Assembly (NCBI GenBank): GCA_029225085.1
Contig: JAQXVU010000002.1
Location: 1 to 64,000 of the forward strand
Direction of reading: 5' to 3'
DNA length: 64,000 nt
DNA from: Eggerthellales bacterium
Lineage (GTDB): Bacteria > Actinomycetota > Coriobacteriia > Coriobacteriales > Eggerthellaceae
Positions 29,952-44,241 of the stretch are shown here, piece after piece; positions within the stretch are counted from its first letter, which is position 1; every line of letters begins with the position of its first letter. A program made the translations under genes and the position numbers. The notes beneath the pieces were generated by a model, which worked only from the letters and a program-made list of their open reading frames with translations, had not been told where the DNA came from and ran no database searches.

Positions 29952-30302
29952 GAAAAGGGAGCGGGTCTGTAAGCCGGGTTCTGTCGTTTAAGACAATCAT
30001 TTATCTACTGCGTGCGTCACCGCACGCCTCTAGCACGCAACCCGAACGCGAACCAGGGCTCAAGTTCATGGCGTTCCTATTTGCGCTTGCTCCGGATGGG
30101 GTTTACCAAGCCATGCTGTTACCAGCATGCTGGTGCGCTCTTACCGCACCGTTTCAGCTTTTCTCCTGACAAGCAGGGGAGTCTTCTTTTCTGTGGCACT
30201 TTCCATCGGGTTGCCCCGCCCAGCCGTTAGCTGGCATCCTGCCCTGAGGAGCCCGGACTTTCCTCATGCGCTGATGCGCCCGCGATTGTCCGACCCGCTC
30301 CT
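29952..30302 (-). ncRNA. rnpB: RNase P RNA, class A
   Basis: Read on the minus strand, the RNA shows the universal blocks of bacterial RNase P RNA: GAGGAAAGTCCGGGCTCC near its 5' end, AACGGCTGGGC and AGTGCCACAGAAA, and AGATAAATGATTG then ACAGAACCCGGCTTA near the 3' end. The P1 stem GGAGCGGGTC pairs with GACCCGCTCC, and CCCTTTTCTT follows as the terminator. Total length about 350 nt. It processes the 5' ends of tRNAs. An extended -10 (TGCTAGAGT on the minus strand, covering 30308-30316) lies just upstream. Confidence 0.97.
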
Positions 30303-31155: not shown

Positions 31156-31253
31156 GAGCGCGGGGAGCTTGCGCCAAGGCAGGCTGAGAGGGGACAACGA
31201 GGGCTGTCCTGACCCGTTGAACCTGTATGGGTAATGCCAACGAAGGGAGATAG
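31156..31253 (+). ncRNA. TPP riboswitch (THI element)
   Basis: The conserved THI-box order is complete: CGGGGAGC, GGCTGAGAGGG, a variable P3 arm, CCTGACCCGTTGAACCTG and GGGTAATGCCAACGAAGGGA. These are the pyrimidine-sensing and pyrophosphate-sensing helices. The final GAAGGGAGATAGC runs into the thiC start, so the ribosome site AAGGGAG is part of or next to the aptamer. Control is therefore probably at translation initiation. No terminator stem is seen between aptamer and gene. Confidence 0.95.
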
Positions 31254-39144: not shown

Positions 39145-39169
39145 TTTCCGCCTTGGTCGGAAACCAAGG
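39145..39169 (+). promoter_or_regulatory. Leader hairpin of the L31 mRNA
   Basis: CCTTGGT (39151-39157) and ACCAAGG (39163-39169) make a perfect 7-bp stem. TTTCC (39145-39149) with GGAAA (39159-39163) would be an alternative, incompatible pairing. L31 leaders that mediate autogenous control are known in Actinobacteria; whether this is one is inference. AAGGAG follows 9 nt later. Confidence 0.4.
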
Positions 39170-39188
39170 CACCTATAAGGAGAAACCA

Positions 39189-41462: not shown

Positions 41463-42227
41463 TTAGGGAACCCGGGCGAAGGTAAGCCCGTAGACCTGCT
41501 GTGCACCTTGCTCCTTCAGGGCTTCTGCCGCGGCAAAGAGGGTCGCTCCTGTGGTGAGCACGTCGTCTATGAGGAGGACCGAAGGGTATACGGAGTCCTT
41601 CCACTCTTCTCGCACCCTTAGCACCTTGCGCATATTGTCGAAGCGCCCTGCGCGATCGAGCTTTCGCTGATCTTTGCTTTCGGGGGCAAGGAAAGGCTCG
41701 AAACGGGGGAGCCCCGTTTGCCGGGAAACTCTTTCCGCGACCAGTTGCATGTGGTCGAATCCGCGTTTCGCCAAGGATTTGCGAGAGGTGGGGATGGCGA
41801 CGATGGCGGGGTTCTCCCGCAGCCAGCGCGGTTCGATGCAGTTCACCATCAGCTCGCTGATGGTTTCCGCTAGCTGCTGTTGCCCTTGGTCTTTGTAGGC
41901 TCTGACCAGCTTTTTGCCCGATTCCTTGTAGAGAACCGCGTTTCTGCACTCGTCGAAGGGCACCGACGTCCTGCCCATTCGGTGCAGGGTGAAGGTGTTG
42001 CATTCGGTGCAGACGGTGCCGCCCCAGGGTGCACCGCAGATTTCGCAGGCGGACCATCGGTCGAGATAGGGGAGGGACCTGCGGCAGGTGTCGCAGAGGA
42101 TTTTCCCTGGTGTGTCGCAGATAACGCAGCGGGTTGGCCAGAAGAGCTCGGCGATGAGCTCTTGTTCTACTGAAAGATAGGATTCTGCTGTTTTCGCAAG
42201 ATCCGTAAGGAGCGACCGTTTCGCCAT
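41463..42227 (-). CDS. comFC: ComFC-type phosphoribosyltransferase-fold protein
   Basis: A 254-residue ComF-family protein on the minus strand. The N-terminal zinc ribbon uses RCVICDTPGKILCDTC and CEICGAPW. The C-terminal PRTase domain has AIPTSRKSLAKRGFDHM and the PRPP loop VLLIDDVLTTGATL. ComFC acts in natural transformation, where it helps handle incoming single-stranded DNA at the membrane. No comFA is adjacent. GTGAGG lies before the ATG, and just upstream a long hairpin would sit in the mRNA leader. Confidence 0.9.
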   Translation of the reverse strand: MAKRSLLTDLAKTAESYLSVEQELIAELFWPTRCVICDTPGKILCDTCRRSLPYLDRWSACEICGAPWGGTVCTECNTFTLHRMGRTSVPFDECRNAVLYKESGKKLVRAYKDQGQQQLAETISELMVNCIEPRWLRENPAIVAIPTSRKSLAKRGFDHMQLVAERVSRQTGLPRFEPFLAPESKDQRKLDRAGRFDNMRKVLRVREEWKDSVYPSVLLIDDVLTTGATLFAAAEALKEQGAQQVYGLTFARVP

Positions 42228-42317: not shown

Positions 42318-42540
42318 GGATTCCTTGCTGGTTTCTCTTCGAAAGCTTCGCGAAATGTCACGGAATCCTGAGGGGAATCTTACGGGCGCGTAATCAGAGC
42401 TTCACTCGCCTTTGAACGAGGCCTCACGCGCCTTCAACCGTCATTTCGCCTCGTGAATCGGGTTTCTGCCGTCGCGGGACAGGACGCCGAAGGACGGATG
42501 AGACGTCGTAAGAGAGGCAATGCCTCGCCCCAGGTCTCTC
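42318..42540. other. Hairpin-rich spacer between comFC and the structured RNA
   Basis: No gene is recognised. Inverted repeats are frequent: GGATTCC (42318-42324) with GGAATCC (42362-42368), ACGAGGC (42416-42422) with GCCTCGT (42448-42454), and AAGAGAG with CTCTCTT near 42512-42542. These could be operators, attenuators or folded RNA. Confidence 0.45.
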
Positions 42541-42587
42541 TTCCGCCTTGTAACAGAAGAGATAGCGGCAGAGAGGGTCATATCTGG

Positions 42588-42593
42588 TACACT
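42588..42593 (+). promoter_or_regulatory. -10 element before the structured RNA
   Basis: TACACT, preceded by TGG, ends 8 nt before the outer stem of the predicted RNA, so a transcript starting here would begin almost exactly at that stem. No convincing -35 is seen. Confidence 0.4.
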
Positions 42594-42601
42594 TTCCACA
42601 A

Positions 42602-42836
42602 ACCGTCTTCGGGTCTGTAGTTGCGGGTCGGCAAGGTGCCGGCCTTAGTTCATGGCAGACGCGGTCAAAAGGATCCACGTAAGCACGTTTGTGCGATCAT
42701 GGCGCGTCCTAGAAGTAAGTCGTGCCGCCTGTTCTACTTAGCAGCATGGGGCTGCGCAGGCGAGAGGGTTGCGGTCGAGAGGCTTCGCCCCAGCATGCGA
42801 GTGTGGGGTCAAAGACTAGGTCAGCCGAAGGACGGT
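42602..42836 (+). ncRNA. Candidate multibranched structured RNA, about 235 nt
   Basis: ACCGTC-TTCGG (42602-42612) pairs with CCGAA-GACGGT (42825-42836, one bulged G), closing the whole element. Inside are several hairpins: GTCTG/CAGAC enclosing GGTCGGC/GCCGGCC (42613-42660), GATC and GCAC/GTGC (42672-42698), TAAGT/ACTTA (42716-42740) and GCAGC/GCTGC (42741-42755). A T-G pair in the second stem forms only on the + strand. It does not match tmRNA, 6S, 4.5S or RNase P. Size, branching and proximity to comFC are reminiscent of raiA-motif RNAs; this is a hypothesis. Confidence 0.5.
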
Positions 42837-42874: not shown

Positions 42875-43777
42875 ATGAAGCGATCTGCAGGTAAGATTGC
42901 AGCTTTGGCCCTGGTGGCCTGTCTGGCATGCGCCCTGTGCGGCTGCGCCAGCGAACCCTATGTTCCCGCAAAGAAGGATTCGACGGTCGATCCGTCGGCT
43001 CTCATCACCGCAGATGTTCTGACGGTGGGCGTGAACGCCAACAGCGCTCCTTTCGCTATGGAATCTGACGGATCTATCGTGGGCATCGATGTCGATGTGG
43101 CTGCCTCTATCGCTGATGAGATGGGCCTGAGCCTGGAAGTGGTTGATGTGGGAACTGATGCCACTGGCGCTCTCGAGAACGGCACCGTCGATATGGTCAT
43201 GGGACTCGATTCCGCTGACAACAGCCTCGATTGTTGGGTATCCGATCCTTACATGAATTCCTGCGTGGCCCTGTTCTCCCATAACTCCAATTCCACCATT
43301 CCCACGAAGAAGAGCAAGCCCTCTATCTGCGCCGATTCCGCATCTATGAGCGCGTGGGTGGTAACCGATCAGTACGGCTCCTCCGCTCTCGATCCTCAGG
43401 ACCTCTCCTCCTCCTTCGAGAAGCTGAATGCCGGTGAAACCGATTACGTGGCTGCCGATGCGGTGGTGGGCACCTATGCGACCTACGCCTCTTACTACGA
43501 TGCCCATATCGTCGCCCTGATGGAGAAGCTCAGCGGTTACTGCCTGGGCGCTTCTTCTACGAATACCGCCCTGCAATCTGCGCTGCAGTCTGCCCTCGCC
43601 TCCTTTAACGAGCAGGGCGTTCTGTCCGTCATCGAGAACCGTTGGCTGGGCATGAGCATCGATTACGATTCCATCTCCTATACCTCTGGCGCTAAGGATG
43701 CTAAAGCCTCCTCTTCTACTCAGACTGAGTCCTCCGAGGGTGTCAGCGGCGTTGGCTCTAACGCGGTGACCTTCTAG
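42875..43777 (+). CDS. Orphan solute-binding lipoprotein, family 3
   Basis: A 300-residue secreted lipoprotein. A signal peptide ends in the lipobox LCGC, with Cys26 the likely lipidated residue. Residues about 45-265 form a family 3 (amino-acid type) periplasmic-binding fold: LTVGVNANSAPFAMESDG, then GIDVDVAASIADEMGL and a lobe-2 region with AGETDYVAADAVVGTY. The C-terminal 35 residues are Ser/Ala-rich. No ABC permease or ATPase is adjacent, so it may serve a distant transporter or act as a sensor. GAAGGATTGAG precedes the ATG. It is 38 nt past the candidate RNA. Confidence 0.85.
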   Translation: MKRSAGKIAALALVACLACALCGCASEPYVPAKKDSTVDPSALITADVLTVGVNANSAPFAMESDGSIVGIDVDVAASIADEMGLSLEVVDVGTDATGALENGTVDMVMGLDSADNSLDCWVSDPYMNSCVALFSHNSNSTIPTKKSKPSICADSASMSAWVVTDQYGSSALDPQDLSSSFEKLNAGETDYVAADAVVGTYATYASYYDAHIVALMEKLSGYCLGASSTNTALQSALQSALASFNEQGVLSVIENRWLGMSIDYDSISYTSGAKDAKASSSTQTESSEGVSGVGSNAVTF

Positions 43778-43785
43778 GAGGCATC

Positions 43786-44241
43786 ATGGCTGACTCTTCC
43801 GACTTCAAGCTGATATCGGTGCATGCCGCCGAGTCTTCGACGCCTGCTGAAGAGGTGCGCCCCGAAGAGGTGCGCTCTGGTGTGACTGCAGTATCGGAAG
43901 AGAAGGCCCAGGTCGCTTCGTCGTTGGGGGACGATCCCCAAGCTGTCGCGGAGCCGGTAGCGGAGCCTCGCTCTGATGCGGAGCCCCAGGCCGTTTCCGC
44001 ATCTGAAGTATTCTATGAGCCCATGCAGGAGTTCTCTCCTGCCGAAGAGGACCCCCAGGAGAAGGCCGCTCGCCTTCGCAGGGAGCGCCTTGCCAAGCAG
44101 GCTGAGGAGCTGCAGCGCCAGGAGGAGAATCTGGGCACGGGCAAGGTTCCCCTGTCCGGCGTGCGCACGGCCCTTGTGGTGGTGGGCGTTCTGGTGCTCG
44201 TTGCCTTCGCCGTGCTGTATTCCGGTGTCATTCCTTGGTAG
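43786..44241 (+). CDS. Unrecognised tail-anchored acidic protein
   Basis: A 151-residue protein I do not recognise. Residues 1-85 are Glu/Pro/Ala/Ser-rich and probably disordered. About 86-115 is a charged helix (KAARLRRERLAKQAEELQRQ) likely to form a coiled coil. A single C-terminal TM helix (about 127-147, TALVVVGVLVLVAFAVLY) ends only four residues before the stop. GGAGG precedes the ATG. It starts 8 nt after the lipoprotein gene, so the two are probably cotranslated. Confidence 0.75.
   Translation: MADSSDFKLISVHAAESSTPAEEVRPEEVRSGVTAVSEEKAQVASSLGDDPQAVAEPVAEPRSDAEPQAVSASEVFYEPMQEFSPAEEDPQEKAARLRRERLAKQAEELQRQEENLGTGKVPLSGVRTALVVVGVLVLVAFAVLYSGVIPW

Follow-up and report, generated by a model that had tools for sequence, protein, structure and literature searches.

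In the 64,000-nucleotide stretch of Eggerthellaceae DNA that we analysed (the window), a full-length RNA element with its own putative promoter lies between a divergent comFC gene and a solute-binding lipoprotein gene. The coordinates of the features are collected in Table 1. The start of comFC is located 376 nt upstream of the element, on the opposite strand, and the ATG of the lipoprotein gene 40 nt downstream of it, that is 38 nt past 42836, where the original prediction had placed it. The next open reading frame, 43786-44241, has no match to a Pfam family, which argues that no transporter gene adjoins the lipoprotein gene. The hpf (raiA) gene is found elsewhere in the genome, on contig C10.

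We searched the whole window with covariance models and obtained a match to the raiA RNA family of Rfam at 138.9 bits (E 3e-34), against a gathering cut-off of 101.3 bits. The match is untruncated and spans positions 1-209 of the 209 in the model. The original prediction, made from the letters of the sequence, had suggested membership in the raiA motif and had named this search as the way to check it, and the suggestion proved right. Judged by this homology, the stretch next to comFC encodes a copy of the described bacterial raiA/ModT RNA, and the match excludes the new RNA class that had been offered as an alternative. The window copy is of variant 2, the larger P6-P8 form. Published work already describes the family and its fold, as well as its association with comFC and with genes for periplasmic-binding proteins, and the place of the raiA RNA in this genome is an ordinary, expected one.

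Table 1. Features of the raiA RNA locus (positions in the window).
Feature	Position	Strand	Evidence or remark
comFC, divergent	41463..42227	-	TIGR00201 comF E 3e-27, below its own cut-off; DZR_2 and Pribosyltran domains
Extended -10 TCTGGTACACT (TGnTAnnnT)	42583..42593	+	conserved upstream of the RNA
raiA (ModT) RNA, full length	42604..42834	+	RF03072, 138.9 bits
P1a/P1b/P1c 5' strand (outer stem)	42604..42622	+	pairs with 42814-42834, covariation
P2 hairpin	42626..42644	+	7/7 pairs covary
pk1 5' half AGACGCG	42657..42663	+	pairs with 42703-42709
P5 hairpin	42683..42694	+	4/4 pairs covary, 84.1% of cells paired
pk2 5' half (U, G)	42700..42701	+	with 42810-42811 (C, A); placed from cryo-EM description (PMC11751092)
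pk1 3' half CGCGTCC	42703..42709	+	pairs with 42657-42663
P6	42721-42725 with 42793-42797	+	100% of cells paired, compensatory changes; encloses P7 and P8
P7 hairpin	42726..42762	+	96.4% of cells paired, compensatory changes
P8 hairpin	42766..42790	+	95.5% of cells paired, compensatory changes
P1c/P1b/P1a 3' strand	42814..42834	+	pairs with 42604..42622
Solute-binding lipoprotein gene, family 3 (SBP_bac_3)	42875..43777	+	Pfam PF00497 E 2e-18

Promoter and other RNA elements in the window

The TACACT hexamer at 42588-42593, which had been proposed as the -10 box, is confirmed as part of the conserved extended -10 element, and a -35 box is not recognisable upstream of the RNA in the window. The pattern TGnTAnnnT occurs within 30 nt on the 5' side of the RNA at 64 of the 70 family loci; outside the family, 34 of 35 loci in other orders of the class and 23 of 34 in other families of the order have it, compared with a background of 0.6% of control windows. 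At most family loci the extended -10 precedes the RNA by approximately 8-11 nt. Imperfect inverted repeats are present at 42507-42576, just 5' of this promoter and between it and comFC.

Other RNA elements were matched elsewhere in the window. A TPP riboswitch match on the + strand (31161-31248; E 4e-9) scores just below its cut-off (50.8 against 54.3 bits); it lies directly before thiC and overlaps the listed ATG of that gene at 31234, and translation of thiC probably begins further downstream. An L31-Coriobacteria ribosomal protein leader precedes rpmE (39150-39182, + strand; 44.8 bits, cut-off 33), and a bacterial class A RNase P RNA is encoded on the - strand (29954-30301; 303 bits).

Structure and covariation of the RNA

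The 11-bp stem that had been described as closing the 235-nt stretch is present, with all its coordinates (42602-42612 paired with 42825-42836), and a single G bulges out of its 3' arm. By itself this stem is at chance level and provides no evidence for an RNA: a search of the rest of the window for 11-bp stems of this kind, with G-T pairs and one bulge allowed and a distance of 185-235 nt between the arms, gives about 2.6 per 600-nt segment. The folding energy is weak evidence as well, being modestly low for the stretch (z = -1.8 relative to shuffles) and closer to the shuffles when the flanks are included (z = -1.1). The fold computed with flanks is restricted to nested pairs and leaves out pseudoknots, and for this reason some segments of the RNA are paired with the spacer in it. 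A dyad finder reported only the repeats upstream of the promoter and missed P1 because of the bulge. The outer stem is raised above chance by homology, in the form of the 138.9-bit match, and by covariation.

For the covariation analysis, a kind of check that the original prediction had advised, 58 sequences, mainly one per genus, were aligned with MAFFT. The scored structure combined the Rfam consensus with the cryo-EM description (PMC11751092), with pk2 left out of the covariation count. Compensatory changes were found in 40 of 51 pairs (27.8 in shuffled alignments), and standard pairs in 93.9% of the cells (80.7% shuffled); the covariation score was 0.443, compared with 0.209 after shuffling, and slid versions reached no more than 0.130. 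A lack of compensatory changes in the outer stem had been set beforehand as an observation that would speak against an RNA, and the opposite was found, with all nine P1a pairs varying on both sides. Paired cells amount to 94.6% in P1a/b and 99.3% in P1c. The view that the locus holds chance inverted repeats between genes, and no RNA, could appeal to the outer stem taken by itself and to the near-chance folding energy, but it is already refuted by the E-value of 3e-34 for an RNA family and by covariation far above the shuffled and slid controls, and we give it practically no weight.

The interior of the element holds at least the four hairpins that had been predicted, which are real and correspond to P2, P5, P7 and P8. 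P2 is optional in the family and absent, for example, from the aligned loci L004 and L151; in the window copy it interrupts the discontinuous GNRA-like turn. Pseudoknot pk1, a mark of family membership, is present in shortened form: six of its seven pairs are standard in the window, the outermost is non-standard here as in 50 of the 58 sequences, and four of the seven change on both sides across the alignment. Pseudoknot pk2 of the raiA RNA consists of U82-A182 and G83-C181; the corresponding letters are in place, and they are mostly conserved. The assignment to the + strand was correct, and is also given by the Rfam match, although not on the strength of a single G-T pair, as had been stated, since several G-U pairs favour that strand (42622/42814, 42628/42642, 42722/42796 and 42769/42787).

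Distribution and gene order in Coriobacteriia

The genome from which the window comes has one copy of the raiA RNA. Within Eggerthellaceae it was detected in 128 of 138 genomes, with one match each, and in 91 of 92 when good assemblies are considered. A family-level pattern of the RNA was matched in named relatives, namely Ellagibacter and Gordonibacter of the Eggerthellaceae, and Collinsella. The class Coriobacteriia has it in 238 of 248 genomes, and an even draw across the phylum in 58 of 149. Two class genomes, G241 and G295, have two matches each, for which contamination or a strain mixture is possible. Two of the genomes in which the RNA was not detected, G265 and G223, have the solute-binding protein gene at the end of a contig, and incomplete assembly is the probable reason for the absence; in G042 and G183, the RNA and close copies of the gene are both missing.

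The neighbourhood that characterizes the family is seen in the window, where comFC and the solute-binding protein gene flank the RNA. The lipoprotein gene follows downstream on the same strand at all 71 family loci. Outside the family, the figures are 35 of 35 for other orders of the class (705 nt away at L127) and 31 of 35 for other families of the order. The gap that separates the RNA from the start codon is about 34 nt across the class (median 31-35 nt) and usually contains a clear Shine-Dalgarno sequence. The solute-binding protein gene is in turn followed by hpf in most of the order. At L123, L133 and L135, from other orders of the class, the open reading frame after this gene resembles another such gene when the translations are read by eye, so that the RNA may be followed by two consecutive solute-binding protein genes. 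At the phylum loci outside Coriobacteriia, the solute-binding protein gene was not found beside the RNA, which usually has hpf next to it.

Four genomes of the order (L087, L091, L106 and L107) and loci in other classes of the phylum have the RNA but not the lipoprotein gene beside it; two of the four have no detectable homologue of the gene anywhere. In the few genomes without a detectable RNA, close copies of the gene were seen only at contig ends. The dependence between the two looks one-sided in the genomes compared, in that the gene in close form was not found without the RNA, and the RNA occurs without the gene. Gene order, as distinct from a tree, suggests that the ancestral arrangement was likely comFC, RNA, hpf, and that the solute-binding protein gene entered the locus, directly after the RNA, at the origin of Coriobacteriia; later, comFC likely flipped and hpf moved away in most Eggerthellaceae. 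The fixed place of the RNA before a solute-binding protein gene in Coriobacteriia is a useful detail, and the class offers a natural experiment, with the RNA next to hpf, to the solute-binding protein gene, to both, or to hpf alone. These varied neighbours argue that the main job of the RNA is independent of its neighbour.

Mode of action and relation to known raiA RNAs

We hypothesize that the element is a trans-acting RNA of the ModT type, the promoter of which also drives the lipoprotein gene, and not a riboswitch; on balance of the analysis we consider this probable. Transcription from an extended -10 of its own, expected to begin near 42600, would yield an RNA of about 235 nt with a compact P1-P8 fold that includes two pseudoknots. 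If clostridia are a guide, this RNA would be abundant and stable, act in trans and help to time the switch from growth to stationary phase. Because no terminator separates the RNA from the lipoprotein gene, co-transcription is likely and the promoter probably also supplies the lipoprotein mRNA; the mature 3' end would then arise close beside P1, through processing or through termination of part of the transcripts.

Complementation in trans has been published for ModT of C. difficile and, as cited in the C. difficile work, was obtained for the raiA RNA of C. acetobutylicum, and in clostridia it excludes a cis-acting role. An abundant, stable RNA of 210-260 nt that acts in trans is known from clostridia only. 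The clostridial phenotypes (sporulation, aggregation and toxin) may not carry over to Eggerthellaceae, the members of which are, to our knowledge, non-spore-forming. The family, in which the RNA is near-universal and single-copy, is a place to test its function outside spore-forming clostridia.

The near-inseparability of RNA and lipoprotein gene in the class fits a cis role at least as well, and in that respect counts against action in trans. In Coriobacteriia the RNA could have become, or could still be, a cis-acting leader or riboswitch that controls the downstream gene, as the original prediction had also considered. The same-strand position of the gene at the loci described above, the short spacer with its Shine-Dalgarno sequence, and the lack of close gene copies in RNA-less genomes other than at contig ends speak for such control, and Rfam types RF03072 as a cis-regulatory riboswitch. 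We nevertheless regard it as unlikely. A scan of the RNA strand of the window detected no intrinsic terminator in the spacer, and runs of at least five T are present in the spacer at 4 of 133 loci. The whole RNA pairs with its own Shine-Dalgarno region no better than with that of permuted partners (-13.97 versus -13.81 +/- 0.17), that is, the region does as well with the RNA of other species. A riboswitch with a terminator or a Shine-Dalgarno platform was thus rejected. Moreover, a riboswitch is expected only before the gene that it controls, and this RNA persists in the absence of the solute-binding protein gene in the four genomes named above and in other classes, while the cis role is excluded in clostridia.

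We speculate, with limited confidence, that one transcript could have two jobs in Coriobacteriia: the raiA RNA would be released as a stand-alone regulator, and as a conserved leader it would couple the solute-binding lipoprotein, a possible nutrient sensor without an adjacent transporter, to the growth phase. It is also conceivable, but quite improbable in our view, that the RNA works in trans as a ribozyme or as a component of an RNA-processing ribonucleoprotein, affecting for instance tRNA or rRNA levels. The compact, highly conserved fold is compatible with this, and tRNA and 5S RNA are raised in the C. difficile mutant, for which the authors speculate on processing; against it, the raiA/ModT literature surveyed reports no catalytic activity.

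The trans-acting ModT-type RNA that we favour can be compared with described members of the family. The window copy shares with the raiA RNA of RF03072 its sequence and structure over the full model, the variant 2 form and places for both pseudoknots, and it is likewise a single copy that adjoins comFC. It differs in having the optional P2 hairpin, in the orientation of comFC, which is divergent instead of upstream on the same strand, and in being followed by a solute-binding protein gene, with hpf elsewhere; a neighbour of this kind has already been mentioned for the family (PMC11477304). ModT of C. difficile (PMC11706538) belongs to the same family, adjoins a comFC-like gene and has its own promoter upstream, but that promoter is described with -35 and -10 boxes, in contrast to the extended -10 here, and an intrinsic terminator there yields a long isoform, whereas the window copy has none before the next gene. 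In the raiA RNA of C. acetobutylicum, characterized by cryo-EM (PMC11751092, PMC12286853), pk1 has 7 bp and connects the P3 loop with the pk-loop, compared with six standard pairs in the window copy. P1, P4-P8, pk1 and pk2 of that structure can all be placed on the window sequence, into which P2 is inserted after P1c.
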